Shown: positions 122-60,602 of the stretch, piece by piece
How positions within the stretch are numbered: position 1 is the stretch's first letter
How the letters are laid out: each line of letters starts with the position of its first letter
From: Sediminibacterium sp. Gen4
GTDB lineage: Bacteria; Bacteroidota; Bacteroidia; Chitinophagales; Chitinophagaceae
Length of the DNA stretch: 64,000 bases
Direction: 5' to 3'
Assembly (NCBI GenBank): GCA_013391385.1
Contig: JACBFI010000015.1
Span: forward strand, 16,202-80,201
Position numbers and translations under genes: made by a program
The notes under the pieces: generated by a model
What the model was told of the DNA's origin: nothing
Databases searched by the model: none
The model's input: only the letters and a program-made list of their open reading frames with translations

Positions 122-276
122 TGGTAATCGGGTGATCGGGTGATCAGGTAATCGGGTACTGGGTGCTTTTTGTTGGGATTCTTTTTCTGCATCATTAATC
201 AGATTCATAAAAAGTCCATACACCACCCATCACCCGATATCCCGATCACCTGATTACCCGATCACCCGATCACCCT
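122..276. repeat. degenerate 8-bp-word hairpin array (GGTGATC words)
   Basis: The left arm (122-166) is a run of words such as GGTAATCG, GGTGATCG and GGTGATCA. The right arm (222-276) is a run of the complementary words, such as CACCCGAT and CACCTGAT. The roughly 55-nt middle is unrelated. The arms can pair into a long imperfect stem. It lies between the divergent left-edge gene and asnS. It is the only array of the set whose main period is 8 rather than 7. Confidence 0.85.
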
Positions 277-293
277 TATCTTCTTTTCCTTCT

Positions 294-301
294 TATCTTT
301 G
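294..301 (+). promoter_or_regulatory. asnS -7 promoter element (TATCTTTG)
   Basis: TATCTTTG matches the Bacteroidota -7 consensus TAnnTTTG and lies 42 nt before the asnS ATG, which leaves a leader of roughly 35 nt. No clear TTTG -33 element is visible at the usual spacing. The call rests on the -7 box and its position. Confidence 0.55.
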
Positions 302-343
302 CCGCTCAAAGCCTGAACCACAGGCGTTTCAAAACAGCAAGCA

Positions 344-1792
344 ATGTTTAACAAAAGAACCAAGATCAAAGACCTGCTGAGTAGCGGGGTGGCCGGACAA
401 GAAACCGTTGTGATGGGTTGGGTGCGAACGTTTCGTAACAACCAGTTTATTGCATTGAATGATGGCAGTACCAATAATAATTTACAGGTAGTAACAGAAT
501 TGGGTTTGTTAGATGATGCTACATTGAAAAGAATCACTACCGGTGCTTCTTTGAAAGTAACGGGTACGGTGGTGCCTTCATTGGGAAAGGGACAGTCGAT
601 CGAATTAAAAGCAACGCAAGTAGAAATATTGGGGGATAGTGATGCGGAAAAATATCCTTTGCAGCCAAAGAAACATAGTCTTGAATTTTTGAGAGAGATC
701 GCACACCTGCGTTTTCGTACCAATACATTTGGTGCTGTGTTTCGTATCAGACATTCGTTGGCGTTTGCGGTACACAAGTTTTTCAATGAAAAAGGATTTG
801 TGTATTTGCATACACCTATTATTACTGCGAGTGATGCTGAAGGCGCAGGAGAAATGTTTCGTGTAACTACACTTCCTTTTGATAACCCGCCTCGCAAAGA
901 AGATGGGAGTATTGATTTTGCAGAAGACTTTTTTGGAAAGAGTACCAACCTCACTGTAAGTGGACAATTAGAAGGCGAATTAGGTGCGATGGCGTTTAGT
1001 GAGATTTATACTTTTGGCCCCACCTTCCGTGCAGAGAATTCAAATACGACCAGACACTTGGCAGAATTCTGGATGATAGAACCGGAGATGGCGTTTTATG
1101 ATATTGAAGACAATATGAATCTCGCAGAAGAGTTCATTCAATATTTGATTCGTTATGTGATGCAACACAATGCGGATGATCTGGCGTTTTTGGATCAACG
1201 ATTGGCAGAAGAAGAAAAACAAAAGCCACAAAATGAACGTCAGGAATTTGGATTGTTGGAGAAGTTGAAATTTGTAACGGATAATAGTTTTGAAAGAATT
1301 ACTTACACAGAAGCCATTCAGATATTATTGGATTCACCTGCGTACAAGAAAAAGAAATTCAAGTTTGATGTGAAGTGGGGTATTGATATGCAGAGTGAAC
1401 ATGAAAGGTATTTGGTAGAAAAACATTTCAAGAAACCTGTGATTGTAACAGGATATCCTGCCGCCATCAAAGCGTTTTATATGCGCATGAATGACGGATG
1501 TGAACCCGGAAAAGAAACAGTAGCGGCGATGGATATTTTGGCACCGGGTATTGGAGAAATTGTAGGTGGCTCACAAAGAGAAGAGCGTTTGGAAAAACTG
1601 GAAGCGCGTATGCAAGCCATGCATATACCACTCGAAGAAATGAGTTGGTATTTAGATACCCGTCGCTTCGGAACCGTACCCCACGCAGGTTTCGGTCTCG
1701 GCTTCGAACGCATGGTACAATTTGTTACCGGCATGACGAATATTCGCGATGTCATTGCCTTTGCGCGGACGCCGAAGAATTGTGAGTTTTAA
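344..1792 (+). CDS. asnS: asparaginyl-tRNA synthetase
   Basis: This class IIb aminoacyl-tRNA synthetase charges tRNA-Asn with asparagine in the cytoplasm. The 482-aa length is normal for bacterial AsnRS. An N-terminal OB-fold anticodon-binding domain (about residues 15-100, with [11 protein letters not shown]) precedes the catalytic core. Motif 2 is visible around [17 protein letters not shown], and motif 3 as [12 protein letters not shown] near the C-terminus. The asparagine-type rather than aspartate-type core and the lack of a GAD insertion support AsnRS over AspRS. The ATG at 344 starts the OB-fold region directly. It is followed by a hairpin array rather than a canonical U-run terminator. 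Confidence 0.96.
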
Positions 1793-1909
1793 AGCTACGA
1801 GCTGCGAGCCACGAGCTATGAGCTTTTTATTTTTTATTTGAGCAGCAATGGCTCATTTTATACATGTAAAAAGCTCATAGCTCGTGGCTCATAGCTCACA
1901 GCTCATTCA
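1793..1909. repeat. degenerate heptamer hairpin array (GAGCNNN words)
   Basis: The left arm (about 1793-1825) reads as the words GAGCTGC, GAGCCAC, GAGCTAT and GAGC. The right arm (about 1869-1907) is its near-perfect reverse complement (GCTCATA, GCTCGTG, GCTCATA, GCTCACA). The approximately 45-nt loop is AT-rich. The element starts three bases after the asnS stop codon. It supplies a spurious in-frame GTG (1884) to the next gene. Confidence 0.9.
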
Positions 1910-1940
1910 ACCATTTCCCCTCTCCACACGTATATACAGC

Positions 1941-2810: not shown

Positions 2811-2879
2811 AAGCTTCAAGTAACAGGCTTCAAGCTACAAGTTAAACCTTGTGTCTTGTTACTTGGTTCTTGAATCTTC
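2811..2879. repeat. degenerate heptamer hairpin array (AAGNNNC words) upstream of tRNA-Phe
   Basis: The left arm (2811-2842) has the words AAGCTTC, AAGTAAC, AGGCTTC and AAGCTAC. The right arm (2848-2879), read on the other strand, gives AAGATTC, AAGAACC, AAGTAAC and AAGACAC. The loop is only about five bases. It sits between the DUF3050 gene and the tRNA, inside the presumed tRNA leader. Confidence 0.85.
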
Positions 2880-3027: not shown

Positions 3028-4032
3028 CTATCTTTTCTTAATGTTTCCTTTTTTAATGTCCTCCCAATCTTTTTGATATGAATTTTGATTAATTGGATGT
3101 TTATAATCTATAATCATCTCGATACCCGAAAATGTTAGTGATACTTTATCCTTTAAATAAGGATTGAATTGAGAAAGATTTTCCCACGAATCAGAATCAT
3201 TGCCAGGAATCAATATGGTTGCCATCACTTTATGATTGCTTTCTTTTTCGAGAAGGGTCATGTTTACTACGAAACCATCATAAGATGAATTGTTTTGAAT
3301 TAATATTAATCTGTTAGCGCTTAATTCAAAACTATTTGATAGAAAAACACCAAGGTTTTCGAGAATATGATTTTCAGAATTATTTAGAACACCTCTTATT
3401 TTAGAACCAGTCGATGAATAAATAAAACTATAACCCCAGACTGAAAAACAGAACAGGTATGCACTCTTAAGCAGGGCTTTATAAACAAGTTTGATTTCAG
3501 GAATAGTAACCGTTGCTTTCAACTCCCAATTCGTATTGCTTTTAATTTCTTCTAACCACCCTTTAATATATGGATGTTTTTCTGTGTTTACATTAAATGT
3601 CAACTCGTTTTTTTCTGTAAGAGATAGCCCTGAATTGTAAGAGCCAGGTATACCCTTAAAGGATGCTTTTATATTTACTTTTGAGTTTTTCTTCCTTTTT
3701 ATAACGGCATCATGTTTTAGAAACTCTTTTATTGAATAATCATAATTTGAGCCAGCCTTCGAATTACAATCTTTACATACTAAAACAGTATCTCTACCCC
3801 CAACACTCTCTGGTGGTAAATGGTCAAGGGTGAAATCATTTGTCCAAGAAAGCAAAGCTTCTTTTGGCAGGTATACAAACATTGATTTTAAACAAAGAGG
3901 ACACAGGTATGCAAATTCTGGATAAAAATGCGCTCCATCGTTTAATCGAACTTTAAACTTGCCAGAGCTTTCAATAAGTGAAGAAGAAAATCTCTGTAAA
4001 TACCATTGAGCGCGCTTTTGATTCAAAGCCAT
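3028..4032 (-). CDS. HNH endonuclease family protein
   Basis: A 334-aa protein with an N-terminal HNH nuclease module. A zinc pair is visible at C44-P-L-C47, the catalytic DH of LDHLPPE at residues 69-75, and a second zinc pair with the motif Asn/Lys at CKDCNSKAG (86-94). The remaining 230 residues match no family I recognise and may bind a target or act as an effector domain. It is AT-rich relative to asnS, stands alone in its orientation with Fic, and lies right behind tRNA-Phe, consistent with acquisition. A role in phage or plasmid defence is inferred from context only. The ATG at 4032 is the only good start. Confidence 0.8.
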   Translation of the reverse strand: MALNQKRAQWYLQRFSSSLIESSGKFKVRLNDGAHFYPEFAYLCPLCLKSMFVYLPKEALLSWTNDFTLDHLPPESVGGRDTVLVCKDCNSKAGSNYDYSIKEFLKHDAVIKRKKNSKVNIKASFKGIPGSYNSGLSLTEKNELTFNVNTEKHPYIKGWLEEIKSNTNWELKATVTIPEIKLVYKALLKSAYLFCFSVWGYSFIYSSTGSKIRGVLNNSENHILENLGVFLSNSFELSANRLILIQNNSSYDGFVVNMTLLEKESNHKVMATILIPGNDSDSWENLSQFNPYLKDKVSLTFSGIEMIIDYKHPINQNSYQKDWEDIKKGNIKKR

Positions 4033-4212
4033 GAATATTGCTGTTTAGACATGAAGGTCTTATTTTTCTCCAAGTATCATCTATAATCTGAGTGTGTTTC
4101 CACTATTAGCTTTAATGTTATGTAGAGAATCTTTTCTATTTCGTAAACACTCCTAGATGTAATTGTTGATGTTCTATATTTTATTAATACTGGTTTGTAT
4201 ATCTGGGCTTTC

Positions 4213-5595
4213 TTAGAAAAGACTTTCTTGATTTATGTTTTCTGATCTCCTTCGAAACGAAATGGTTTTTCCCGGGAATTGCAATTTCAGTTGAGAGTCA
4301 AAAGAGGCTCCTTTTCCGAAAGCTGTTGTTTTTTTATTCATTTTTATTTTCTCCATAAAGCCACCTGTAACTAATCCCTGTAGATCAGTTCTTGCTGTTT
4401 GATTTGAAACGCCCAAGCGACTTTCAACCTCTTTTGCCGTAAGTAATAATGAGGGTTCCTCATACATCCATTTAAGGATTAACGCTTGCCGTTCATTTAC
4501 ATTTTTGATTTTTAAAAACTCCGAAACTTGCCGTTTCTCATCAATTTTCCTTTGCAGATATTCTCTCAAACTATCATAAGCGAGTTTCATGGTTCTTACC
4601 TTGTACGAGATAAAATATGTAAGATCATTGTCATCGGTTTCTGTAAAAATATAAGCTTTTGCATATTGGTTTTTTGATCTAAGAATGAGTCTTGAAATCG
4701 AAAGATACTCAGTAAGCCAATAGCCCTTTTTTAATAGATACCAATAAAAAAGCGCGCGCGCAGTTCTACCATTGCCATCAGCAAAAGGATGAATAAAGCC
4801 CACCATAAAATGTATGATGCATCCCTTAATAATTGGGTGGATAAAAACAGGGGAGTGATCATCGTTAAAGAAGCGAAACAGATCCGACATTAATCCCGGT
4901 AGTTCTTCAACGATTGGAGGATGATATACAACTTCATTGTCAATGACGTCAATAACATTTATGTCATTGGTGGATCTGAAAGCGCCTTCGTCTTCATGGT
5001 TATCAAGTGTTCCGGCTGTTATGAGTTGATGAACTTCCAATAATTTTTCTGCATTAAGCTCTTGATCTTTTAATTCGAGAATTCTTTGAATAGTGTAATA
5101 GTTATTTACAATCATTCTTTCAGATCTGTTTTTCGGACTTAATTTTTTCCGAAGAATCTCCTTAGCATGTTTTCTGGTCGTAACAGCACCTTCAATCTGG
5201 CTAGAAGCAATAGCCTCTTCCATGATAGAGCTTATTAAGTATCTATTCTTATCATCCGTAGCTATCAGACTTCTGGTTTCTAGAGAGCCGCCAATATTTA
5301 AGTCAAAAAAGTGAAGCATTTCCTGTATTCTTGCTGGCAAAGTCCAGCTAAATTGATAATTGCCAAATGTTACTTTGTAAGGACTTTGAAGTCTTCTAAA
5401 TTTTGCAAAAGACCAAACTTCTATCGGGTTTACACCTTCGGGCATTGTAAGATATTTGACCTTGTTCCAATAGTAGTAATCTTCATTCACCTTGTTTACT
5501 AGCTTATTAAAGTCTGGATTATTTGCAAGTTGAATAATCCTCGAAGGCTCGAAACTACTTAAAGGCATAAAAGGAGTTTTTTCTAATCCTCTCAT
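4213..5595 (-). CDS. Fic family protein with C-terminal winged helix
   Basis: The 460-aa protein has the full Fic active-site motif HPFADGNGR (about residues 269-277), which places the catalytic His and the nucleotide-binding loop. Fic proteins usually transfer AMP from ATP to hydroxyl side chains of target proteins. SSQIEG (about 131-136) fits the (S/T)xxxE(G/N) inhibitory helix located N-terminal to the core (class II), so the enzyme is probably autoinhibited. The last 100 residues contain a winged helix-turn-helix (VESRLGVSNQTARTDLQGLV), implying DNA binding. The frame is open to a TTG at 5604, but I prefer the ATG at 5595. The upstream region carries a large palindrome, probably its own operator. 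There is no separate antitoxin gene. Confidence 0.9.
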   Translation of the reverse strand: MRGLEKTPFMPLSSFEPSRIIQLANNPDFNKLVNKVNEDYYYWNKVKYLTMPEGVNPIEVWSFAKFRRLQSPYKVTFGNYQFSWTLPARIQEMLHFFDLNIGGSLETRSLIATDDKNRYLISSIMEEAIASSQIEGAVTTRKHAKEILRKKLSPKNRSERMIVNNYYTIQRILELKDQELNAEKLLEVHQLITAGTLDNHEDEGAFRSTNDINVIDVIDNEVVYHPPIVEELPGLMSDLFRFFNDDHSPVFIHPIIKGCIIHFMVGFIHPFADGNGRTARALFYWYLLKKGYWLTEYLSISRLILRSKNQYAKAYIFTETDDNDLTYFISYKVRTMKLAYDSLREYLQRKIDEKRQVSEFLKIKNVNERQALILKWMYEEPSLLLTAKEVESRLGVSNQTARTDLQGLVTGGFMEKIKMNKKTTAFGKGASFDSQLKLQFPGKTISFRRRSENINQESLF

Positions 5596-5596
5596 T

Positions 5597-5765
5597 ATTT
5601 CCAAATTTTTTATAAGTTAGGATAAATTTATGAATAAATTACTCATTTTTTTAGCATAAATATCCAAATATTTCCAAATTTTATTAAAATTTGGAAATAT
5701 TTGGATGGTCGTGCTTGTTTGCAGTTTCTACAACTAGAGGATAATTTCCAAAAATTTATTGTAAT
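5597..5765. promoter_or_regulatory. Fic operator region with a 45-bp palindrome
   Basis: Perfect 22-bp arms at 5662-5683 and 5685-5706 flank a single T. Each arm holds two copies of the box (A/T)TCCAAAT(A/T)T in tandem. Additional single boxes occur at about 5598-5612, overlapping the Fic start, and at about 5752-5762. The array fits autoregulation by the winged helix of Fic, although a different regulator is possible. Confidence 0.7.
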
Positions 5766-5776
5766 GAACGCTAACG

Positions 5777-5812
5777 AAAAAAGAGGCTGCCAAACTCGGC
5801 AGCCTCTCCTTT
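5777..5812. terminator. bidirectional intrinsic terminator
   Basis: A perfect 10-bp stem AGAGGCTGCC/GGCAGCCTCT with the loop AAACTC (5782-5807) has an A-run on its left and TCCTTTTT on its right. It ends the leftward DUF6266 operon six bases after the last stop codon. Confidence 0.9.
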
Positions 5813-6028
5813 TTACTCCACTTCTTCTTTCTTCACCAACTGACTAACCGCTCCAATCACCCCACCTGCTACAGCTGCATAACCGGCAAAAGTTACGAGT
5901 GCTGCGGGAAGTGTTACCGGTGCTGTGAGAATGGCGGCTGAGATACCCGCCAATGCAACACCGATGTTGCGTAGTCTGCGGAAGAAAAGAGGTGGTTGTG
6001 TGGATGCACGATTGATGACCTCTTTCAT
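5813..6028 (-). CDS. small holin-like membrane protein
   Basis: A 71-aa protein with one long or two short hydrophobic helices. RNIGVALAGISAAIL and a following Ala/Val/Gly-rich stretch run to SQLVKK, and the tail KKEEVE is charged. The size and hydropathy resemble phage holins, but no specific family can be assigned by eye. It is the last gene of a three-gene leftward operon with DUF5675 and DUF6266 proteins (9 bp from its neighbour) and is followed directly by a strong terminator. Confidence 0.65.
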   Translation of the reverse strand: MKEVINRASTQPPLFFRRLRNIGVALAGISAAILTAPVTLPAALVTFAGYAAVAGGVIGAVSQLVKKEEVE

Positions 6029-6037
6029 GTTTTTGTT

Positions 6038-6445
6038 TTACTGTGGTGGTTGAATAATGATTTTTAAGATCACAAGTTCTCCTGCACGGATGGTTTCATC
6101 TGCCAACGAAAACAATTGCTGCATCGCTGATCTGGAGCCGATTCCTATTCCCAATCCGGTAAGTTGTGTAACCGGTGCAATACAACCTCGGAGTTCTTTC
6201 ATGGCGTAGTTGGCGGGGTGTATGAGAATCATACTTCGCTCCGGCACATCTTGCACATGCAAATGCCATTCAAACCGCGGACTGTATCGTTTACTGATCT
6301 TATAACTTCCTTCCGGTATGCAGGATATTTGTGGCTGATTGTTTTTCCAAGGAAGCTCTATGGTATAACAAATCTGTTGATCATTCAGGTATAGTACACC
6401 ATTCACTCCTGTAGCACCATAAGTGCGCACCAGCGTTAGTTCCAT
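6038..6445 (-). CDS. DUF5675 family protein
   Basis: A 135-aa protein with the pattern typical of DUF5675. It opens with a conserved beta start (ELTLVRTYGATGVNGVLYL), followed by CYTIELPWKNN, IPEGSY, and a central ILIHPANYAMKELRGCI with a His and a Cys, ending in a helix. DUF5675 proteins are short, soluble and common in Bacteroidota prophage-like or secretion-like loci. Their activity is not known to me; the His/Cys arrangement invites comparison with cysteine peptidase or transpeptidase folds, which is inference. Its start lies 2 bp from the stop codon of the upstream DUF6266 gene, so the two are probably translationally coupled. Confidence 0.8.
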   Translation of the reverse strand: MELTLVRTYGATGVNGVLYLNDQQICYTIELPWKNNQPQISCIPEGSYKISKRYSPRFEWHLHVQDVPERSMILIHPANYAMKELRGCIAPVTQLTGLGIGIGSRSAMQQLFSLADETIRAGELVILKIIIQPPQ

Positions 6446-6447
6446 CT

Positions 6448-7101
6448 TTATTCTCTTACCAGTACGGCTCCTAAATATTTTGTATCTGAAGCCCTCGACT
6501 CATCATCAGACAAAAAGAAGAACCAACCATGCACTTCTTTACCGGTAAATGCAGCAGCATCTAACAGCAATTCCTGATCGCTACGTCTAGTGCTAAAGTG
6601 ACTCACCAGAAAGCTTTTGTCTTCCGGACAATACAACACCGCAATAGCCCTGTCAGCGGTACTGGATTTGTTGCCGTTATTTTCCGGAACAGCACCATTC
6701 CAACTGAACGCAATCATATTGCTGGCTTCCGCCGACAATGTGCATTGAGCAATGGTTGGTATAGAACCTTTCGAAAGCCTAACCTTGGCATAATCAATAT
6801 CAAAAGGAGACTCAACTCCGGCAACCGCATCTTTCAGGTTCACCGAAAAAGCTTCCTGAAAACCACTGCGGGTATTGTTATTGGTTTTGTACGTAAGGTT
6901 CAGCAGGTAGTCGATACTGTGCAGAAAAGTCATCATCATTTTAAACTTTTCTTGTTGTTCAACCTGCTGTTTGGAAAAGGTTCTGTTTTTTTTGTAGATG
7001 GGTTTAGCACGCATCACCGGCTTACCCTTCCATGAACTTCCAATCACCGGGCCGGTTTTTCCTGAAAACCCACCCAAGATTCCTTGTGAAACGATAGACA
7101 T
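6448..7101 (-). CDS. DUF6266 family protein
   Basis: A 217-aa protein that begins with ILGGFSGKTGPVIGSSWKGK, the hallmark start of DUF6266 proteins. These are Bacteroidota-specific and usually 210-220 aa. No signal peptide, membrane segment or catalytic motif is evident, and the second half is beta-rich (ending YLGAVLVRE). It is the first gene of the operon with DUF5675 and the holin-like protein. The N-terminal glycine-rich conserved segment suggests a structural or assembly role; function is unknown. Confidence 0.8.
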   Translation of the reverse strand: MSIVSQGILGGFSGKTGPVIGSSWKGKPVMRAKPIYKKNRTFSKQQVEQQEKFKMMMTFLHSIDYLLNLTYKTNNNTRSGFQEAFSVNLKDAVAGVESPFDIDYAKVRLSKGSIPTIAQCTLSAEASNMIAFSWNGAVPENNGNKSSTADRAIAVLYCPEDKSFLVSHFSTRRSDQELLLDAAAFTGKEVHGWFFFLSDDESRASDTKYLGAVLVRE

Positions 7102-7613
7102 AAAATTTGTTTTTAAGTGTTTACAATGTTGTTGTTTGTTACTCCTGCTGCAGACAGGAACACCGGTGTTGTTAACAATGCAAACTTATTTCGCCAACAA
7201 AGGGCTAGGGGGTGGCAGGGGTGGTACCACCCCCTTCAACGAGTTGATAAAGAGATCATATATAATTTAAAAAACTATTGCTCAGATGTAAAGGAGGTTC
7301 AAAAAGGTGGCAGTCTTCGAGAATCCTTCGGTAAACCCCTATTAGATAGGTAGATCGACCGTAGCAAACAGGCACTTTCTTCGAGATCGCTTCGAGATTT
7401 CTTCGATAAACCTCGAAGCGGCTTCGGTAGTTCTTCGGTAATTCTCGAAGAAACACCGAAGAACTACCGAATGAATATCGAGCATGGTACGAGTGAAGTA
7501 CAGGAGGAGAAGAGGAATTTCCAAAGAGGAACGGTAGAATGTTCAATGCCAATGTCCAGCTTTGATATTGGACATTCTTCTGTTGGATAAATCCCCGTGC
7601 TTTTTTACAAGGA
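7102..7613. other. 512-bp intergenic region with several palindromes
   Basis: No convincing gene is present; the open frames here are read through repeats. Contents: a perfect 16-bp palindrome GGGGTGGTACCACCCC at 7218-7233, an 11-bp-period array (7315-7483), and a short inverted repeat AATGTCCA/TGGACATT near 7545-7577. It separates the unknown 364-aa gene (3' side) from the DUF6266 operon (5' side). Confidence 0.7.
7315..7483. repeat. 11-bp tandem array (CTTCGAGATTT / CTTCGGTAATT words)
   Basis: Two units at 7315-7336 are followed after a 42-bp gap by about ten consecutive units at 7379-7483: CTTCGAGATCG, CTTCGAGATTT, CTTCGATAAAC, CTCGAAGCGG, CTTCGGTAGTT, CTTCGGTAATT, CTCGAAGAAAC, ACCGAAGAACT, ACCGAATGAAT, ATCGAGC. 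The period is 11 bp except for one 10-bp unit. The array is also an inverted repeat: perfect 17-bp arms lie at 7423-7439 and 7455-7471. It lies 3' of the 364-aa gene. Confidence 0.85.
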
Positions 7614-8708
7614 TTATTGGAGGAGGTCTTTCAATATTTTTTGCATCCTAACATTGTACTCCAGCATTATTTGTACTGCTGATCGTTCAGGTTGGTGGTA
7701 TTTGTTGTAGAGACTTTTGAAGGCAATGCTTTGATTTCTGTTGGTAGAAGCGTTTTCTGCAAAATACCGAATCAAATCAGTGGTGTTATGGTGTTCAATC
7801 ATGCCCGAATCTGTTTGCATGCGAAGCCATACGGCCAGTTGCGTAACGGATAGCGCGTATTGAAACGGACAAGAAACCTGCATGATGTTTTTTGCTTTAT
7901 CTGAAAAATGGCTGGCGTCCATTTCGGTTTGTATTAGTTGCATCAAAGCTGATTTACAATCTGGTTCTTTTACCAATAAAACTGTTTCTTTTTCAGGGAT
8001 GATTCGGTTGATGTGTAACAAAGCTTCCTGCCAATGCTGGTGAGGGTTTCGAGAGGTATCAAGCGCCAATAGATAGCGCGAAAATACATAACGGATAAAA
8101 GCGGGATGATTGCAATTATAGCGGATCAATAAAAGTATACAACGTGCAGTGTCATATTGTGGATGTTCTTGTTCCAAGCAAAGAGCTTGTATGAGTGCTT
8201 GCCAATAATGTGCCTGTTTGAAACTGGGTGTGGGATGGGTTGTGGTGTCTGTGTATATGTTCTGAAATACGGCTACCAAATCTTGTTCAATATCATTCAA
8301 TAAAAACGCTTTACCCGGTTCTATTTTTACTTGAATTTTTTCATGAATGGGTTGCCAAATACTGTGGGGCATGGGTGCATCCAAATTAAACCAGCTGCCG
8401 CTCTGTTGTTGTAGAAACGCGAGGAAAGAGGTTAGTTGTGTAGCGATTTTTTCACGGAACAGCGTGTGATTTTTTTGCTGTTTTTCATGAATAGAATTGA
8501 GTAACCAGCAGATAACATACTGCACACCTTGGATAACATAGCTGATAGATTGTTTTGCAGCAGCGCTACAAACTTCTCTGATGTAGCGAATGTTGAGCTG
8601 TTTTGTTTCTGCAATGATTTTTTTCTCATCCTGCGCCGTCAGCCTGGGGGCTTCTTCAATGATCTGAAGTAACTGATCGTTAACAGGGAACAATATGGGT
8701 TGCTCCAT
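7614..8708 (-). CDS. hypothetical protein (364 aa, helical)
   Basis: I do not recognise this gene. The protein is soluble and predicted mostly helical, has no signal peptide and is rich in Gln and His. The C-terminal part (TTDLIRYFAENASTNR, then SLYNKYHQPERSAVQIM) is distantly reminiscent of C-terminal regions in regulators carried on Bacteroidota mobile elements such as RteC, but I cannot confirm that. It is transcribed leftward toward the DUF6266 operon but is separated from it by 512 bp of repeats, so it is probably not in the same operon. The ATG at 8708 is preferred. Confidence 0.6.
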   Translation of the reverse strand: MEQPILFPVNDQLLQIIEEAPRLTAQDEKKIIAETKQLNIRYIREVCSAAAKQSISYVIQGVQYVICWLLNSIHEKQQKNHTLFREKIATQLTSFLAFLQQQSGSWFNLDAPMPHSIWQPIHEKIQVKIEPGKAFLLNDIEQDLVAVFQNIYTDTTTHPTPSFKQAHYWQALIQALCLEQEHPQYDTARCILLLIRYNCNHPAFIRYVFSRYLLALDTSRNPHQHWQEALLHINRIIPEKETVLLVKEPDCKSALMQLIQTEMDASHFSDKAKNIMQVSCPFQYALSVTQLAVWLRMQTDSGMIEHHNTTDLIRYFAENASTNRNQSIAFKSLYNKYHQPERSAVQIMLEYNVRMQKILKDLLQ

Positions 8709-8886
8709 AAAACGATTGGATTTCTACCAATTTAAGACAGAATATCTGCTTCGCCTACAACAAAGCGGCGGAAAAATATTGAGTTAGCAAAATTTGCGTT
8801 TTTACGATCTTTTTTTGCGGTTTTTCGAAGAAAAATTGCGTAGAACTACGCTTGTATTCGTTCATAAAAAAAGGTAAAATAGCGTA

Positions 8887-9420
8887 ATGAACACTCGGGT
8901 TTCTTTTTATTTCGTCAATCGTTTAACAGTTCAGTTATTAGCTGTTATTACTTTATACTTTGGTGTTCATTGGTTGATTCCCATCGTTGGCACAACCTTG
9001 ATCAACGGCATGAAAGATTGGGATCTGGCAAGTATTTTTTACTGCTGGTTGATTCAATATCTGTTTATTGTGGCATCAATAGAATTTAGAGAATACTTAA
9101 TTAAACGAGCAAGACCTTTTCTTATCAGGATGCCGAAAAGGTATTTGCGATCAACATTATTGGTAGCATCTATTGCTATATACTGCATCCTCTTTTCTTT
9201 CCTGTATTTACTCATAAAAGAAATGTCTGCATTCTCTACAACAATACTAATTGAGGTTCTACTACTCATATGTCAAATCTGGTGCTTATGTGGTATAGCG
9301 ATGCCTATAAGTGCTAAACGTTTTTATATATTCTTTTTTAAACCGGGTTACCGGTTGAATGAAAATGAAACCTGGCAGATGCCCAAAGAGCATATCGAGA
9401 GAAAACAAGGCTTGTCATAA
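8887..9420 (+). CDS. hypothetical membrane protein, four predicted TM helices
   Basis: A 177-aa protein with four hydrophobic segments (about residues 13-33, 48-64, 93-113 and 120-142). A basic loop (REYLIKRARPFLIRMPKRYLR) lies between the second and third, suggesting a cytoplasmic loop, and the C-terminus is polar. The layout resembles the membrane part of LytS/YehU-like sensor kinases, but no kinase domain follows. It is divergent from the 364-aa gene and precedes the deaminase gene by 157 bp. Function unknown. Confidence 0.6.
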   Translation: MNTRVSFYFVNRLTVQLLAVITLYFGVHWLIPIVGTTLINGMKDWDLASIFYCWLIQYLFIVASIEFREYLIKRARPFLIRMPKRYLRSTLLVASIAIYCILFSFLYLLIKEMSAFSTTILIEVLLLICQIWCLCGIAMPISAKRFYIFFFKPGYRLNENETWQMPKEHIERKQGLS

Positions 9421-9577
9421 ACTATTCATCTACTTTTCAATCAAAAAAATGCGTGTTTTTTATAGATTATCATCTTTTTATATCCGCAAAATTGTAAAAT
9501 ATGTTTAGAAAAGAAGATCCACATAATTAAAGTAAAAAAATTACGTTTTTTTATATATAAACCTAAATTGACCAAAT
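9421..9577 (+). other. AT-rich leader of the deaminase gene; possible non-coding RNA
   Basis: 157 bp of very AT-rich DNA with no ORF. In characterised AvcID systems a small non-coding RNA (avcI) that holds the deaminase inactive is encoded directly upstream of avcD. The size and position here would suit such an RNA. No promoter or stable structure is clear by eye, so this is a positional suggestion only. Confidence 0.25.
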
Positions 9578-11128: not shown

Positions 11129-11150
11129 CAATACTATAAATTTGCGTCTT

Positions 11151-11405
11151 ATGTCAAACAGAAAAGATACAAAAAGGCAGGTATTACCTTGCCAGCTTGA
11201 ATTGTTTTCAACAACCAAGGCACTGCCAGTCGTAAATGAGCAACCTGTTTATTGTAAGCAAAATGTTTGTATAAACTATTCGGTTTCTTCTGAACAGCCT
11301 ACAAATAACGGAAGTGTAATTATTAGTTTAGCTGATTTTAAAAACAAACAGAAAATCACTAAATTTTACGAAGAGATCAATAAGCTAACATCACACATTA
11401 AGTAG
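11151..11405 (+). CDS. small hypothetical protein downstream of avcD
   Basis: An 84-aa ORF from an ATG at 11151, 22 bp after the avcD stop. The same frame is open back to a TTG at 11121 that overlaps the avcD end by 8 bp, so translation could be coupled. The N-terminus is basic (MSNRKDTKRQ), followed by LPCQLELFSTTKALPVV. The C-terminus is a charged helix (DFKNKQKITKFYEEINKL). There is no recognised family. Codon use and AT content are like avcD, which suggests it entered with it. A partner or modulator of the deaminase is possible. Confidence 0.55.
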   Translation: MSNRKDTKRQVLPCQLELFSTTKALPVVNEQPVYCKQNVCINYSVSSEQPTNNGSVIISLADFKNKQKITKFYEEINKLTSHIK

Positions 11406-11558
11406 TTATTCATTAATATTCCCCCTACTATTATTATTGAGTGCCAAGCACTCCGTAGATTTACAAATCCTTATTAGGATTCAAAATACTGTTTTATCTA
11501 GTTATTAATACCTTGTATACTATTGGTATGGGGTATTCAACTAATTGCTTGTAATCCC

Positions 11559-13133: not shown

Positions 13134-13150
13134 ATCATTTATGTAATACT

Positions 13151-14341: not shown

Positions 14342-14356
14342 CCAAAATAAAGTTCA

Positions 14357-15550: not shown

Positions 15551-15559
15551 GAAAAATTC

Positions 15560-18409: not shown

Positions 18410-18456
18410 AAGAGTGAATTCAAATGTATATTGATGGCAACGATAAATACTGAGTC

Positions 18457-18813: not shown

Positions 18814-18939
18814 GGGTTCTATTTACATAAAGGGAAGCACTCTACATTCATAATCATTAATATTTGAAACGGGTAGTTTACTTTTTGCTGAAAGAAGTAT
18901 TAATATTTTATATATTTCCTTATTGAAACAAATCATTCT

Positions 18940-19551: not shown

Positions 19552-19561
19552 TGCTTTAATT

Positions 19562-19620: not shown

Positions 19621-19622
19621 CA

Positions 19623-27955: not shown

Positions 27956-28063
27956 AGTGGGAGTAGTGAGAGTGAGTAGTGAATAGTCAGTAGTGAGTAA
28001 AGAGCGCGCCTTACAAAACTCCCTACTCACTATCTTTCACCTTTCACCTTTCACTTTTCTCCA
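27956..28063. repeat. degenerate heptamer hairpin array (GTAGTGA / TTTCACC words)
   Basis: The left arm (27956-28002) has AGTAGTG, AGTAGTG, AATAGTC, AGTAGTG-type words. The right arm (28018-28063) has CTACTCA, CTATCTT, TCACCTT and TCACCTT-type words that can pair with it. The element contributes a false ATG-initiated 70-codon extension to the next SusC gene. Confidence 0.8.
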
Positions 28064-33597: not shown

Positions 33598-33933
33598 CGG
33601 AAGAATAGAGAAACAGAGGAATGTCCAAACAAGAAATTGGATACGCTTCTGTTGATCGTTTTACTTATAAGGCCCCCCTCCTCCTTACCATGGACCATGG
33701 ACTATATGCCATGAACCATGGCCTGAACCTCAGTATCACGCGAAAGCAAAAAATTTTTTGTGATAAAAAAAACACATATATTAGTATTCCCCCTACGAAA
33801 AGTTCAGTGCTGAAAGATTCTCACAACATGAGAAAGAATCTAACAAATGCAGAAGTTGAATCACCTGCATTCAGAATCTTTTATAAAATGTAAAGACAGA
33901 TTTTATAAACCTAAACCAACACCCACTTCTATC
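33598..33933. other. 336-bp intergenic region with one heptamer run
   Basis: Contains the ATGGACC-word run (33687-33728). After it come AT-rich DNA and TTCTCACAACATGAGAA, a short inverted repeat near 33819-33835 that may belong to the promoter of the TM2 operon. The open frames in this stretch are composed of repeat and are not supported. Confidence 0.55.
33687..33728. repeat. degenerate heptamer run (ATGGACC words)
   Basis: ATGGACC, ATGGACT, ATATGCC, ATGAACC, ATGGCCT in tandem, 90 bp after the LytTR stop codon. The same words recur at 36013-36050 and 47077-47127. CCATGG palindromes inside let the run fold on itself. Confidence 0.8.
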
Positions 33934-36012: not shown

Positions 36013-36050
36013 TGGCCATGGACTATGGACCATAGGCCATGAACCATAAG
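36013..36050. repeat. degenerate heptamer run (ATGGACC words)
   Basis: ATGGACT, ATGGACC, ATAGGCC, ATGAACC, ATAAGC in tandem, ending at the stop codon (36051-36053) of the leftward SusD gene. Same word family as 33687-33728. Confidence 0.8.
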
Positions 36051-47076: not shown

Positions 47077-47127
47077 ACCATGGGCTTATGGTTAATAGTC
47101 CATAGTCCATAAGCCATGAACCATCAG
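47077..47127. repeat. degenerate heptamer hairpin array (ATGGACC words)
   Basis: ATGGGCTTATGG and TTAATAGTCC, ATAGTCC, ATAAGCC, ATGAACC-type words lie between two convergent genes. Part of the run reads ATGGNCT and part its complement, so it is a compact hairpin. Confidence 0.75.
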
Positions 47128-50900: not shown

Positions 50901-51057
50901 TAGGCTGCGAGCCATGAGCTACGAGCTTTGAGCTGCAAGCTACAAGGAAAATCATTTCGGTGAACTTTAGACAGCTAGTAACAAGAAAATCTTAGTGAAG
51001 AGCTTACTCTCTAAAAAAACTAAAAGCTCGTAGCTCATGGCTCGCAGCTCACAGCTA
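50901..51057. repeat. degenerate heptamer hairpin array (GAGCNNN words)
   Basis: The left arm (50901-50946) has GCGAGCC, ATGAGCT, ACGAGCT, TTGAGCT, GCAAGCT words. The right arm (51021-51057) has their complements (GCTCGTA, GCTCATG, GCTCGCA, GCTCACA). The loop is about 75 nt. The stop codon of the CBM48-like gene (51055-51057) lies in the right arm. Confidence 0.9.
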
Positions 51058-51398: not shown

Positions 51399-51515
51399 GG
51401 GCTGCGAGCTATGAGCTACGAGCCGCGAGCTTTTTGTTTTTTGTAAAAAAAACAAATGTTTGTAAGCCCCTCGTATACCAAGCTCGTAGCTCGAGGCTCG
51501 TAGCTCAAAAGCTCA
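51399..51515. repeat. degenerate heptamer hairpin array (GAGCNNN words)
   Basis: The left arm (51399-51435) has GCGAGCT, ATGAGCT, ACGAGCC, GCGAGCT. The right arm (51479-51515) has GCTCGTA, GCTCGAG, GCTCGTA, GCTCAAA. The loop is T/A-rich. The stop codon of the 86-aa gene (51513-51515) forms the outer end of the right arm. Confidence 0.9.
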
Positions 51516-52981: not shown

Positions 52982-53184
52982 TAGCTTCACGCTGCAAGCT
53001 ACAAGCCGCAAGCTACAAGCCACAAGCCACAAGAGGCCATAAAACATGGTAAACGTTTGCCTATCAACAACTTGCAGCTTGAAGCGTGCAGCGTGCAGCT
53101 ACAAGCCACAAGCTACAAGCCGCAAGTGCCCATAAAACATTGTAAAAGTTTGCCTATCAACAACTTACAGCTTGTAGCCTGCGG
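52982..53184. repeat. tandemly duplicated heptamer hairpin array (CAAGCNN words)
   Basis: Two copies of a hairpin unit, 93 bp apart. The loops are nearly identical (CATAAAACATGGTAAACG and CATAAAACATTGTAAAAG, beginning at 53038 and 53131, both followed by TTTGCCTATCAACAACTT). The arms are made of CAAGCTA, CAAGCCG, CAAGCCA-type words and their complements. The element lies between the response regulator stop and the sigma factor start. Confidence 0.9.
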
Positions 53185-53186
53185 CG

Positions 53187-53843
53187 TTATTCCCCTTTAT
53201 ACAACCCCTTCTCACATGCATACGCAACCAATCCGGCGATGCTTTTGACGCGCATTTTTTGCATGATGCGGGTGCGGTGACCTTCGACGGTTCTTTGGCT
53301 GATGAAAAGATGAGCGGCCACTTCTTTACTGGTGCAACCTCTACAAATCAATTGAATGATATCTTTCTCTCTTTCTGTAAATACCACCAGGTGATTGCGA
53401 TAACCCGATTGGTATTTTTCGATCAGGTCTGTGATTTGTCGGCTGCTTTCTGTGCAGAAATAGGGGCGATGTCCGTAAACAGATTCAATGGCTTCCACGA
53501 TCTCTTTTCGTCCGGCACTTTTCATGACATAACCAATGGCACCGGCTTCCAGCATCTCCATGATATGACTCTCTTGTCCGAAAACCGATAATGCAATGAT
53601 CCGCGGACTACTGCATCGCTTGGATAATTCTTTAGTGGCCATTACGCCATCCATGATGGGCATAGATACATCGGTAATAATAACATCGGGCTGTAGACGA
53701 CTAACCCCGGATAATAGATCCAGTCCATTTTCAGCTTCTCCAATGACATTAACATGGGGGACTGTTTCGAGTATTTTCTTTAATCCTTTTCTGAAAATGA
53801 TATGATCATCAGCGATCATGATCTTGATCCTCGTTTTCTCCAT
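53187..53843 (-). CDS. NarL/FixJ-type response regulator, no adjacent kinase
   Basis: A 218-aa two-domain regulator. The receiver domain (1-125) has acidic ADDH, phospho-acceptor Asp in VIITDVSMPIMDG, and Thr/Lys switch residues in IALSVFG and YVMKSAG. The LuxR/GerE-type HTH is at the C-terminus (FTEREKDIIQLICRGCTSKE, SQRTVEGHRTRIMQKM). It probably binds DNA as a phosphorylated dimer. No histidine kinase is within view. The 3' end abuts the duplicated hairpin array. Confidence 0.93.
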   Translation of the reverse strand: MEKTRIKIMIADDHIIFRKGLKKILETVPHVNVIGEAENGLDLLSGVSRLQPDVIITDVSMPIMDGVMATKELSKRCSSPRIIALSVFGQESHIMEMLEAGAIGYVMKSAGRKEIVEAIESVYGHRPYFCTESSRQITDLIEKYQSGYRNHLVVFTEREKDIIQLICRGCTSKEVAAHLFISQRTVEGHRTRIMQKMRVKSIAGLVAYACEKGLYKGE

Positions 53844-56942: not shown

Positions 56943-56950
56943 AATAATAA

Positions 56951-57056
56951 GGAACAAGAAATAAGAAACAGGAAACAAGGTCCAAAGGACTCCCTTGGAG
57001 AAGGTTCAAGAATCAATTCTCAAGTTTACATAGCGCCGGACTTTAGTCCGGCGAAA
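56951..57056. repeat. composite repeat, copy A (GAAACAA words plus REP-like palindrome)
   Basis: Heptamers GGAACAA, GAAATAA, GAAACAG, GAAACAA are followed by GTCC-AAA-GGAC and TCC-CTT-GGA mini-hairpins. A perfect palindrome with 9-bp arms CGCCGGACT/AGTCCGGCG (57034-57053) ends the copy. From 56971 the copy matches copy B with only a few differences over about 85 bp. It lies between the convergent pcrA and MBL-fold genes. Confidence 0.9.
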
Positions 57057-58045: not shown

Positions 58046-58082
58046 GTGTTGGGCTGCAAGCTACAAGTTTCAGGCTACAAGG
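58046..58082. repeat. short degenerate heptamer run (CAAGCTA words)
   Basis: GGGCTGC, AAGCTAC, AAGTTTC, AGGCTAC, AAGG in tandem, ending one base before the stop codon of the hydrolase gene at 58084. No second arm is present. Confidence 0.75.
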
Positions 58083-58083
58083 A

Positions 58084-59049
58084 TTAACTATTGGCAAAAT
58101 GAATGGCTCTTCTTTCTGCATAGGTCTCACGGGTACCTGCCAGCATAAAGCCACAATGTCCGCCTGCTGCTGTGGTTTCCAATAGAATATTCGGATTGAC
58201 AGCCGCTGCTTCATATCCTATACAGGGTTCAGATAAAAAGGGATCATTCAATGCCTGAATCAGCAAAACGGGAATTTGAATTTGTGGAAGCAGTGGTTTT
58301 ACACTGGCACGTGCATAAAAATCTAGGGCATCAGTATAACCATGTAAAGGCGCAGTATATCTGTTATCGAATTCAACAAATGTTTTGATCTGTTCATATC
58401 CTTTATAACTGATTTGATCAGCATAGCGGATAGATTTTTCCTGGATTTTCTTTCCTAACTTTTTTAAAAAACGTTTTACATAAACGCTGTTACCCGGTTG
58501 AGAAAGCGCTTGTACACTGGCATACAGATCACAGGGAACTGAAACACCGATTACTTTTTTTACAGCCGCAGGAACCCGATTGGGAAACTCTCCTACTGAT
58601 CGTAAACTCAAACTGCCACCCATGCTAAATCCGACAAGCACAATATTATCATAGCCATATGTATCAATAGCATGTTGTATCACCGCTCTGAGATCATTGG
58701 CATCACCATGATGATAAAAACGTAATAATCGATTGGGCTCTCCGCTACAACTTCTGCAATTCCATCCCAATGCATCCCATCCCTGCGCCACAAATATTTT
58801 GGCCATGCCGGTAACATAATGTCTACCTGAGTCACCTTCCAATCCATGTGTAATGATGACCAATTTTTTCTGAGTCCTGTTTTGCTGATGCCAATCCAGA
58901 TCTACAAAATCACCATCTACCAGTTCCAGTCTCTCCCGATGATCATATCGAAAATCCACTTTCCGAAACATGCTGGGATAAATAGACTGTACATGTCCAT
59001 TCCACTGCCAAAAAGGAGCATGATACGAGGTATCGGAGACGTGTGGCAT
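58084..59049 (-). CDS. YheT-like alpha/beta hydrolase
   Basis: A 321-aa hydrolase of the YheT/EMB8 branch (AB hydrolase superfamily): HGLEGDSGRHYVTGMA, WDALGWNCRSCSGEPNRL, the nucleophile elbow GFSMGGS near residue 145, the Asp in QALNDPFL and the catalytic His in GGHCGF. Substrates are presumably short-chain esters or lipids. The frame is open to 59133 but the hydrophobic extension is read from the composite repeat, so I use the ATG at 59049. Confidence 0.9.
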   Translation of the reverse strand: MPHVSDTSYHAPFWQWNGHVQSIYPSMFRKVDFRYDHRERLELVDGDFVDLDWHQQNRTQKKLVIITHGLEGDSGRHYVTGMAKIFVAQGWDALGWNCRSCSGEPNRLLRFYHHGDANDLRAVIQHAIDTYGYDNIVLVGFSMGGSLSLRSVGEFPNRVPAAVKKVIGVSVPCDLYASVQALSQPGNSVYVKRFLKKLGKKIQEKSIRYADQISYKGYEQIKTFVEFDNRYTAPLHGYTDALDFYARASVKPLLPQIQIPVLLIQALNDPFLSEPCIGYEAAAVNPNILLETTAAGGHCGFMLAGTRETYAERRAIHFANS

Positions 59050-59084
59050 GTGAAGTTTTCGTAAAAATAGTGGGAAATAAGAGA

Positions 59085-59211
59085 CAAGAAGGAAGAAACA
59101 AGGAACAAGAAAGAAACAAGAAACAGGGAACAAGGTCCAAAGGACTCCCTTGGAGAAGGTTCAAGAATCAATACACAAGTTTAAATAGCGCCGGACTTTA
59201 GTCCGGCGAAA
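59085..59211. repeat. composite repeat, copy B
   Basis: Same order of parts as copy A: GAAACAA-type heptamers (59085-59130), the GTCC-AAA-GGAC/TCC-CTT-GGA block, and the palindrome CGCCGGACT/AGTCCGGCG (about 59189-59208). The 59127-59211 part differs from copy A at only three or four positions. It lies in the divergent gap between the hydrolase and corA genes. Confidence 0.9.
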
Positions 59212-59248
59212 CAAAAAGGCTAGAAAGCCAACCCCATTACTCATTACT

Positions 59249-59291
59249 AGCAGCTAGCAGCTCGTGGCTCGAGGTTCAAAGCTCAAAGCTT
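59249..59291. repeat. degenerate heptamer run (GAGCNNN words, other strand)
   Basis: GCTAGCA, GCTCGTG, GCTCGAG, GTTCAAA, GCTCAAA, GCTT in tandem, 19 bp before the corA start. One-armed. Confidence 0.75.
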
Positions 59292-59309
59292 ATTTCGTAT
59301 TTTTAACTC

Positions 59310-60407
59310 ATGACCGGCGCCAAATACCTCAAATACCTGAATCCGCTCACGCTGTTTGATACCAAGCGTACACGTGATATTTTTCATGTGAACCCTACCA
59401 TTATTCCGGAAAGAGTGGAAGCTAGTGAGATTCGGGTGAAAGTGTATGATTATTCTGCAACTGAATTTGTAGAAAAACAATTGAGTGATATCAAAGATTG
59501 TTTTGCTTATCGGGATAATGAGCAAACTACCTGGATCAATGTGGATGGTATTCGTAAGGCAGATGTAGAAGCTGTATGTCATCATTTTGGTATACACTAC
59601 TTGATAGTGGAAGACATCATGAGTGTGAGTCAGCGACCGAAGATGGATGAGATGGAGAATGTGATGTTCTGCCTGCTCAATATGCTGTACTTCAATGAAC
59701 AAACCGGCGCGGTAGAGACTGAACAGATCAGTATTGTTTTAGGAAAAGGATTTGTATTGTCTTTTCAGGAAGATGCAGGGCGAGATGTATTCAATCCTAT
59801 TCGCGATAAGTTGAAACTGAATGGCAGTAAGCTTCGTGTGAGTGGAGCCGACTATCTCTGTTATGCGTTGTTGGATATGATTGTAGACAACTATTATATC
59901 GTGATGGAGAAACTGGGAGATCGTATTGAGTTATTGGAAGAAAAAATCATCCGCGGTAGTAATACGCGAACACTGGCGGTGATCAATAGTTTACGCAAAG
60001 AGTTAATTGTATTGAAACGTAATGTGAGTCCGGTAAGAGAATTGATCAATGGATTTATTCGCAGTGAAAGTGATTTGCTGGAAGAAAGAACCACCAAGTA
60101 TTTTAAAGATGTGTACGATCATATTCTGCAAGCGAATGACTTGGCAGAAAACTATCGAGATATGATGATGAACTTACAGGATCTCTATCTCAGCAATGTA
60201 AACCTGAAGACCAATGAAGTGATGAAAGTAATGGCCATTGTAACCTGTTTACTGGCACCCGCAACAGTCATCGGCGGCATCTTCGGTATGAACTTCGATC
60301 GCATCCCCTATCTCCACCACCAATACGGCTTCTTCATCGCAGTTGGACTGATGTTGATTGTGCCGGTTTGGATGTTGGTAGTGTTTAAGAGGAGAGGGTG
60401 GTTTTGA
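59310..60407 (+). CDS. corA: CorA family magnesium/cobalt transporter
   Basis: A 365-aa pentameric channel subunit. A large cytoplasmic alpha/beta funnel domain (1-280) leads to two C-terminal helices. The first ends in the selectivity-filter motif GMN (IFGMNFDRIPYLHHQYGF) and the second is FFIAVGLMLIVPVWMLVVF with a basic end KRRGWF. Transports Mg2+ and also Co2+/Ni2+. The ATG at 59310 starts MTGAKYLKYL, a usual N-terminus. Confidence 0.94.
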   Translation: MTGAKYLKYLNPLTLFDTKRTRDIFHVNPTIIPERVEASEIRVKVYDYSATEFVEKQLSDIKDCFAYRDNEQTTWINVDGIRKADVEAVCHHFGIHYLIVEDIMSVSQRPKMDEMENVMFCLLNMLYFNEQTGAVETEQISIVLGKGFVLSFQEDAGRDVFNPIRDKLKLNGSKLRVSGADYLCYALLDMIVDNYYIVMEKLGDRIELLEEKIIRGSNTRTLAVINSLRKELIVLKRNVSPVRELINGFIRSESDLLEERTTKYFKDVYDHILQANDLAENYRDMMMNLQDLYLSNVNLKTNEVMKVMAIVTCLLAPATVIGGIFGMNFDRIPYLHHQYGFFIAVGLMLIVPVWMLVVFKRRGWF

Positions 60408-60602
60408 AGGCTGCAAGCTACAAGCCACAAGCTTCAAGCAAATTATTTAAGGGTTACTTCTAAATAATTTACCAAACACTTGCAGCTAGAAGCTTGCGGC
60501 TTGCAGCTTCAAGCCACAAGCCACAAGCAAGTTATTTAAGGGTTACTTCTAAATAATTTACCAAACACTTGCAGCTTGAAGCTTGCGGCTTGCAGCCTTC
60601 TC
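60408..60602. repeat. tandemly duplicated heptamer hairpin array (CAAGCNN words)
   Basis: Two copies of a hairpin unit 89 bp apart. The loops are almost identical, running from TTATTTAAGGGTTACTTC (starting 60443 and 60532) to the shared end TTTACCAAACACTTGCAGCT. Arms are CAAGCTA, CAAGCCA, CAAGCTT words and complements. It fills the entire gap between the convergent corA and MATE genes. Confidence 0.92.

Follow-up and report, generated by a model that had tools for sequence, protein, structure and literature searches.

Degenerate heptamer arrays between the genes of Sediminibacterium sp. Gen4 and their association with S23p/IVP genes

Between its genes, Sediminibacterium sp. Gen4 carries short tandem arrays of degenerate 7-bp words, often arranged as two inverted arms. 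We describe them here for a stretch of 64,000 nucleotides (contig JACBFI010000015.1, positions 16,202 to 80,201; hereafter the window) and for further parts of the same and other genomes, together with their association with genes of the PF05635 family (S23p/IVP, 'four helix bundle protein'). The heptamer sites of the window are all intergenic, adjoining protein genes or a tRNA, and none is in 23S rRNA. Heptamer arrays have long been a puzzle in cyanobacteria, Xanthomonas and other groups. The genome under study is denoted G000, related genomes have other G numbers, and fetched loci have L numbers.

The window was scanned together with 398.5 kb from contigs C13 and C35 (462.5 kb in total, about 13% of the genome) for period-p segments, defined as stretches in which each base equals the base p positions further on, using score cut-offs of at least 11 and at least 14 and third-order Markov shuffles as background. 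Period 7 gave 87 segments at the lower cut-off compared with 0.3 in shuffles, and 56 compared with 0 at the higher. At the lower cut-off its multiples 14 and 21 gave 59 (1.0 in shuffles) and 16 (0 in shuffles), period 8 gave 11 (1.0), and periods 6, 9 and 12 gave 7 (0.3), 6 (0.7) and 11 (0.7), respectively. The original prediction, made from the window's letters, had proposed many intergenic sites with a 7-bp period, and this periodicity is indeed near absent from shuffled sequence; most of the window sites that it named are also recovered by Tandem Repeats Finder (TRF). Extrapolation from 87 segments in 13% of the genome suggests hundreds of arrays genome-wide.

The arrays are strongly concentrated between genes, as had also been anticipated, with 2668 of 2973 array bases intergenic, eight of the 87 segments inside called genes, and a density about 41 times higher between genes than within them. 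Gene calls were codon-based and made in this analysis, and gene starts are approximate. Of 53 outer array edges, 29 are no more than 10 bp from a stop codon and two are that close to a start codon. Among intergenic regions of at least 30 bp, arrays are present in 31/204 between tandem genes, 11/45 between convergent genes and 11/57 between divergent genes. An Rfam scan of the window gave no family at gathering score except one tRNA, so that no single known family from that source covers the sites. We also agree that these are not CRISPR arrays, as successive repeat units abut directly, with no spacers in between; no search for cas genes was made.

The words belong to a small number of families, the main ones in this genome being GAGCYNY, CAAGCYN, GTSAAAR, GTCNATR, GTGAATK and RTAGTSA, and variation within an array is confined to fixed positions specific to each family. 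This is clearest for GAGC, where among 37 arms (including 20 short stretches selected for GAGC matches) the core positions A, G and C change from unit to unit in 3 of 150, 2 of 155 and 0 of 152 comparisons (5/457 together) and the first G in 12 of 134, compared with 48/138, 64/125 and 48/130 (160/393) at the three variable positions. The expectation of a constant core with variable positions is therefore upheld. GTCCAT and GTAGTGA keep the same variable positions in G320 and G402, and CAAGC is less sharp. The proposal that words differ by locus does not stand: the GAGC word has 90 exact triple-unit matches in this genome (none for a reversed-pattern control, and none in 39 relatives), and because a small set of families is used at many different loci, with fixed variable positions, the words form a genome-wide lexicon. 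Elsewhere in the order, the RGTCYAT word is present in 26 of 396 genomes and its reversed control in about six. With one genome per species (84,980 genomes), the matches listed for the GAGC pattern fall in many phyla, about 120 matches being expected by chance, and most of 80 loci among those listed are parts of longer heptamer arrays. A set of words universal across phyla was considered and rejected, since lexicon overlap is 7/117 compared with 3.2 ± 1.7 by chance. Substitutions within arrays comprise 203 transitions and 164 transversions; the background was counted in one gene-containing alignment alone (102:134), and for this reason we make no claim of a transition bias as a sign of mechanism.

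Neighbouring arrays are commonly arranged as inverted pairs. Among 38 cases of adjacent arrays no more than 250 bp apart in this genome, 25 are inverted arrays of the same family, two are direct and 11 combine different families; the corresponding 15 cases in G320 comprise 12 inverted, none direct, two of different families and one unclassified. RNA folding of 16 window stretches gave z below -2.7 for nine (those at 1790, 2805, 27956, 33685, 47075, 51396, 52980 and 60408, and the 8-mer at 122), weaker folds for two (36011, and 50928, the latter folded with a shortened left arm), and no local hairpin for the five at 27695, 56944, 58046, 59070 and 59245. The two-arm design originally ascribed to the whole set thus holds at many of the sites, the nine well-folded ones in the first place, and not throughout. 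Arms do not appear to be exact copies of their partners, as arms of the same site match barely better than arms from other sites (GAGC, p 0.22); over 46 hairpins, pairing between same-site arms shows a slight excess over pairing with same-family arms of other sites (stratified p 0.04).

Comparison with G320, whose asnS protein is 99% identical to that of G000, shows that sites persist as words change. Of 47 array sites in G000, 28 could be compared, and at these G320 has 17 strong arrays, five weak ones and six without an array by score; conversely, 14 of 28 G320 sites could be compared, and all 14 carry an array in G000. The word family at the 28 sites is the same in 12, overlapping in three, different in six and filed as absent in seven, one of which (C35:13145, absent by the family threshold) has a hairpin of different, GTGAAT-type words in G320. 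The site directly 3' of the asnS stop codon is the most informative, with both arms made of GAGC words in G000, CAAGC in G320, TAGCTNC in G402, the 8-mer AATTTGAA in G346, and a GTCGGAAA-like word of mixed length in G390. Related species therefore keep sites yet often swap words, usually in both arms together, and these sites provide a natural experiment on concerted evolution. Within a family, arms at orthologous sites resemble each other more than arms at non-orthologous sites do (0.71 compared with 0.58, p 5e-4; 20 and 145 comparisons, partly non-independent), suggesting vertical descent with quick turnover, and gains of units are visible between orthologous arms. Exchange between loci is suggested by the asnS site and a locus on contig C57 (L239), which have letter-identical arms (33 and 36 nt) and different loops and flanks.

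One hairpin of this genome, at C35:119204-119750, has arms 478 bp apart and a loop holding a gene for a 117-aa PF05635 protein (E 3e-34), and we therefore searched 23 genomes for PF05635. Array-bearing genomes have several copies (five in G000 and G346, eight in G320, G402 and G390, 10 in G216 and 13 in G149), and G010, G017, G011, G008, G296, G248 and G246 have none or one. The scanned stretches of this second group are without period-7 or period-8 arrays, apart from a coding repeat and single weak matches; a period-9 signal in G017 is, by eye, a coding repeat of collagen type and not an intergenic array. G332 and G119 each have one IVP copy and one weak array, and the IVP gene of G119 is bracketed. 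After arms had been seen at the IVP loci of G216 and G149, both of which lack the RGTCYAT word, we forecast that these two genomes would be array-rich and G248, G296 and G332 poor. Unselected stretches gave six period-7 and five period-8 arrays in 80 kb of G216, four period-8 arrays in 80 kb of G149, none in G296 and G248 and one in G332 (60 kb each), none in 20 kb of G246 and one weak array in 40 kb of G119. Because the genomes are related, this tally is not a set of independent trials. The stretches scanned in G390, G402, G365, G059, G301, G170, G262 and G373 were mostly picked at or near matches to a word, asnS or a gene, and those of G346 around asnS.

The association is seen most directly in the bracketing of individual PF05635 genes. 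We scored a gene as strictly bracketed when arms within 350 bp of it had an inverted-repeat score of at least 12 and a 7/8-periodicity of at least 0.55. By this measure 52 of 90 PF05635 loci are bracketed compared with seven of 652 control open reading frames (ORFs), with 16 of 30 loci in this order (controls 7/502, ORFs of 270-480 nt in six array-bearing genomes), 19 of 30 in array-bearing genomes of other phyla (controls 0/150, from loci of such genomes), eight of 13 on plasmids and nine of 17 in viral contigs. The misses include three short loci in the other-phyla sample (L338, L339 and L342) and the asnS locus of G390 (L266), which fails the strict periodicity test. The plasmid and viral loci were sampled without regard to heptamers and have array density near and far from the gene as their control, without a matched ORF set; the former are 13 of 28 matches taken by rank (H1-H8, H10-H14), of which 12 are cyanobacterial and one is from Gemmatimonadota, and the latter include near-duplicates (L343/L344; L347/L348/L349/L358). 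An array lies within 350 bp of the gene at all 13 plasmid and 16 of the 17 viral loci. Array density near and far from the gene is 13.2% and 2.2% on plasmids (13 loci), 7.0 and 1.2% in viral contigs (13 of 17 loci, deduplicated), 11.8 and 1.4% in other phyla (27 of 30) and 7.0 and 0.9% in this order (29 of 30). The inverted-repeat score alone is reached at 22 of 30 loci in the order, 21 of 30 in other phyla, 9 of 13 on plasmids and 12 of 17 in viral contigs, compared with 39 of 652 controls. That S23p/IVP genes and inverted heptamer arms are associated is thus well supported.

At a few sites, alleles with and without the element can be compared. In the Nostoc plasmids of C052 and N. edaphicum, an IVP gene flanked by GGGAACA arms separates a TraM-like gene from the gene that follows it; Nostoc ATCC 53789 has, starting from the same left boundary, a hairpin of GGGAACA-like and TTCCCTA words with no gene inside (by eye), and in Nostoc C057 the site is an armless gap of 52 bp. 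The compared plasmids share 94-96% identity in the neighbouring protein. Picosynechococcus 7003 has an IVP element between cas10 and cmr3 that spans from stop codon to start codon, and in Picosynechococcus 7002, whose Cmr3 is 94% identical, the gap is 12 bp. At the asnS 3' site the hairpins of G000, G320, G402 and G346 contain no gene, and in G390 the site holds a PF05635 gene with an internal stop, with arms of mixed 7-9-nt words at L247:16305 and L247:17071. A single site can therefore exist in alternative states, as a hairpin without the gene or as an element that carries it. A cas6-cas4 site was set aside as an allelic series, one plasmid having an empty allele and another an unrelated palindromic repeat. 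In Anabaena sp. 90 that gap is occupied by a heptamer/S23p element, and in Dolichospermum plasmid L377 (1530-1780) by a different palindromic element (GTAGGTTGGGTTGACGC...).

The arrays probably represent arms of small stem-loop elements akin to the 23S rRNA intervening sequence (IVS) with its S23p gene, most copies in this genome being gene-less. Complementary ends that form a stem are found at the nine well-folded window sites and in the 25 inverted pairs; a PF05635 ORF in the loop is found at C35:119204 and at the asnS site of G390, and in no loop of the window; and the window sites lie outside 23S rRNA. Because the S23p ORF is missing from their loops, we regard the window copies as related gene-less forms and not as full members, and it is likely, on indirect grounds, that they are forms of the S23p element. 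None of the five IVP genes of the genome is in the window, and the link could therefore not have been seen from that sequence. The link of intergenic heptamer arrays to S23p genes is a new result, and is an association; no paper making it was found by title or abstract opening, in a search largely outside subscription journals.

Several observations weigh against this interpretation. Strict bracketing fails at 38 of the 90 IVP loci, and five IVP loci, of G011, G332, G296, G017 and G246, are armless. PF05635 occurs in 321 of the 396 genomes of the order (24 of 26 with the RGTCYAT word and 297 of 370 others), so its presence alone is uninformative, and the word-positive genomes G203 and G170 lack it. 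Among 40 genomes outside the order, selected for holding a GAGC match, 35 have PF05635 (compared with 0 of 14 well-known genomes) and five do not. Five IVP genes, none in the window, face arrays that by extrapolation number in the hundreds. Searches with tblastn of the G000 stretches, using 29 proteins as queries (of which L268 and L291 look translated in the wrong frame and L271 is a fusion), recovered two IVP genes that were already known and gave no sign of a gene remnant in the gene-less loops; matches in G320 and G402 stretches were not compared singly with hairpin loops. In 56 kb of G346 there are three period-8 arrays, two of them at the asnS site, and none of period 7. Finally, a target-site duplication is not established, and no evidence of present movement was found.

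A plausible course of events is as follows. In a full element, degenerate words of 7 nt, or less commonly 8 nt, inverted at the two ends would form an outer stem around a loop with a PF05635 gene, and most copies here would be gene-less, resembling miniature inverted-repeat transposable elements. Elements would insert between genes, often right at stop codons, where harm is presumably small. An S23p pentamer might handle the stem as RNA or DNA and so drive or protect the element, and gene-less copies may have lost the gene or may ride on gene-bearing elements. Slippage in steps of 7 nt and exchange among copies would then make the words drift, giving each genome its own dialect; that S23p moves the element, like the manner in which words turn over in step, is inferred. 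More tentatively, and with slightly more doubt than belief, we suggest that heptanucleotide arrays across bacteria may be terminal arms or relics of one widespread, unnamed class of S23p/IVP mobile elements, with the 23S IVS as its best-known site and with dialects arising from joint recopying of the arms, perhaps by way of an intermediate, RNA or single-stranded, on which the S23p pentamer acts. The best solved-structure match to the S23p profile is 2gsc ('XCC0516'), presumably the solved S23p structure of Xanthomonas campestris that is mentioned in PMC4990558. S23p/IVP proteins are said in the same paper to have no known function, and the old idea that the IVS ORF served mobility is cited there. 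Two old puzzles, the heptamer arrays and these proteins, become one question, namely whether S23p moves, protects or uses the heptamer stem, and annotators could recognise a possible mobile element where a 'four helix bundle protein' and an intergenic repeat are listed apart.

Two other explanations seem to us unlikely, and to a similar degree. By plain slippage, 7-8-nt units favoured by DNA polymerase would expand in unselected intergenic DNA, with hairpins and dialects as by-products and IVP genes merely lying in array-rich DNA. This agrees with a period that is mainly 7, then 8, across the array-bearing genomes examined, with runs of one mutated unit (a slippage signature) in arrays of Halomonas, Alcanivorax and others, and with the unit gains between orthologous arms. 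It does not predict the excess of inverted over direct neighbours (25:2 and 12:0), concerted change of both arms, the bracketing of IVP genes at 52 of 90 loci, or the presence of arms and gene at a site that is a 12-bp gap in a sister strain. The other explanation reverses causality, with heptamer hairpins being older, formed by slippage and inverted duplication, and IVP genes a separate parasite homing into their loops. The empty Picosynechococcus allele speaks against an array that was there beforehand, since arms and gene are both missing from its 12-bp gap, although an arms-only intermediate is possible; the Coxiella 23S rRNA IVS also has heptamers (PMC4990558), at a place where an older array is unlikely. 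Arrays are nevertheless far more numerous than IVP genes, they occur in genomes without IVP, and the gene-less loops of our own stretches hold no IVP remnants, as this explanation would have it.

It is much less probable still that the hairpins are selected transcription terminators or stabilisers of mRNA 3' ends whose sequence is free to vary. The clustering of array edges at stop codons, the conservation of sites between species and the strong folds at several of them would fit such a role, yet 11 of the 57 divergent regions have arrays although they contain no gene 3' end, the hairpin ending at 1905 is followed by no T-tract as an intrinsic terminator would be, same-site arms pair just slightly better than arms from other sites, and several congeners have no arrays in the scanned stretches. 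Tandem binding sites for a nucleic-acid-binding protein, with the constant core as recognition sequence, are barely credible in spite of the constancy of the GAGC core, because the core at a single site is not the same in all species, many unrelated cores are found together in the same genome, and lexicon overlap with other phyla is near chance. Two candidate genes were also rejected. A Y1/RAYT transposase does not track the arrays, with no Y1_Tnp match in array-bearing G320, one in G010 (array-free in 100 kb) and one in G000. Nor does loss of SbcD, whose profile is matched above cut-off in 0 of 17 same-genus genomes, with arrays or not, and once each in array-bearing G365 and G301; it is matched in 8 of 14 well-known control genomes.

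The features of the window are listed in Table 1.

Table 1. Tandem-word arrays and hairpins of the window (positions are those of the window; z, folding score).
Feature	Position	Strand	Structure and setting	Evidence and orthologous site
Period-8 hairpin, word GGTRATCG	122..276	.	arms ~123-158 and ~224-275	TRF; fold z -11.1; orthologous period-8 hairpin in G320
Heptamer hairpin GAGCYNY	1793..1905	.	arms 1793-1824 and 1872-1905, loop 47; directly 3' of asnS stop codon	fold z -11.4
Short hairpin, CAAGC words	2811..2877	.	before tRNA-Phe	fold z -3.6; present in G320; none before tRNA in L035 (by eye)
Single arm AGTCAAA	27697..27730	+	<=5 bp from stop codon of SusD-like gene	no local hairpin
Nested arms, GTAGTGA hairpin and CTTTCAC arm	27956..28060	.		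fold z -4.3
Self-complementary CCATGGA array	33687..33720	.		fold z -4.3
CCATGGA array	36013..36050	.	between convergent genes	fold z -2.0, weak
ATAGTCC/CCATGAA array	47077..47124	.	between convergent genes	fold z -2.8
GAGC hairpin	50901..51056	.	arms 50901-50946 and 51025-51056	TRF; CAAGC words at orthologous G320 site
GAGC hairpin	51399..51514	.	arms 51406-51430 and 51481-51506	fold z -6.7; CAAGC words in G320
CAAGC hairpin	52984..53187	.	tandem duplicate of 93-bp unit	fold z -3.7; one copy in G320
Single GAAACAA arm	56946..56980	+		TRF; no hairpin on folding
Short CAAGC array	58046..58084	+		no significant hairpin; present in G320
Single GAAACAA arm	59086..59135	+		TRF; opposing AAGAAAT-type arm at G320 site
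GAGC-type arm	59247..59290	-	without same-word partner	TTTCTTA words instead in G320
CAAGC hairpin	60410..60596	.	duplicated 89-bp unit	fold z -5.0; one copy in G320

The 8-bp array at the left end, which the original prediction had set beside the heptamers, is real, with period 8 in G320 as well. Its 11-bp array is also real, as degenerate repeats with TTCGA/TTCGG cores and an inverted repeat at 7290-7480, and falls outside the heptamer family. It lies inside an accessory island (3028-19900, between tRNA-Phe and the next conserved genes) that does not align to the G320 stretch. The island encodes HNH, Fic, DUF5675 and DUF6266 proteins, type I restriction-modification subunits and, at 9578-11128, a 516-aa protein that contains a dCMP-deaminase domain. 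It resembles a defence island. The AGTCAAA arm at 27697 may pair at a distance with 28034-28059. Nested hairpins, in which one word's array sits inside the loop of another word's hairpin, occur at window 27697-28060 and at C35:150119-150201, and look as if one element had entered another. A separate repeat (AAAGGACTCCCTTGGAGAAGG and like) is present beside GAAACAA and GTCAAAA arrays at about 56974-57017 and 59126-59169; the two window sites share a 44-nt copy, and similar ones are at C35:98798 and C35:99216.

REP/RAYT systems are single fixed sequence families with a Y1 transposase. The window hairpins are like these and REPINs in being short extragenic palindromes with many copies per genome, and unlike REP/RAYT in that their words vary and Y1_Tnp does not track them. 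They share with the cyanobacterial STRR and long heptanucleotide repeats the tandem degenerate heptamers in intergenic DNA. The original prediction knew of no equivalent in Bacteroidota; the degenerate, often two-armed family is genuine, whereas its novelty is reduced by inverted-pair arrays in Xanthomonas (PMC4692102) and by heptamer direct repeats described in five Bacteroidetes (PMC4679880). The TAACTGA repeats of Beggiatoaceae and some Bacteroidetes are likewise intergenic heptamer arrays with a patchy distribution over phyla, and differ in being direct repeats of one fixed word (with one indirect case), mostly upstream of start codons in the main species; the slippage proposal of Mrazek et al. 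2007 for 7-8-nt units is recounted in the same paper (PMC4679880). The GGGAATC/(GGGANTN)n arrays of Xanthomonas and the GGGGA(Y)T arrays of Nostoc (PMC4692102) are intergenic degenerate heptamers with fixed and variable positions near the end of the upstream gene, X. campestris having 186 arrays and 70 inverted-pair cases. There, one G-rich word per genome is discussed in terms of G-quadruplexes and the portions of the paper at hand make no link to S23p, whereas here there are many words. The P6b stems TDNGATT/NNTGAGT of the Nostoc trnL intron (PMC4476775) have degenerate 7-mers on both sides and a word class that is replaced wholesale with the structure kept, and unlike the window hairpins they lie inside a group I intron. 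The IVS of Coxiella 23S rRNA is a stem-loop with an S23p ORF that is cut by RNase III, and has tandem heptameric repeats before the S23p start whose number varies between strains (PMC4990558). The cases in that paper are in rRNA helices and are excised by RNase III, whereas those described here are situated between protein genes, in most cases contain no gene, and are estimated by extrapolation at hundreds of copies; common to both are complementary ends, an S23p gene in the loop and, near the end, heptameric repeats that vary between strains.

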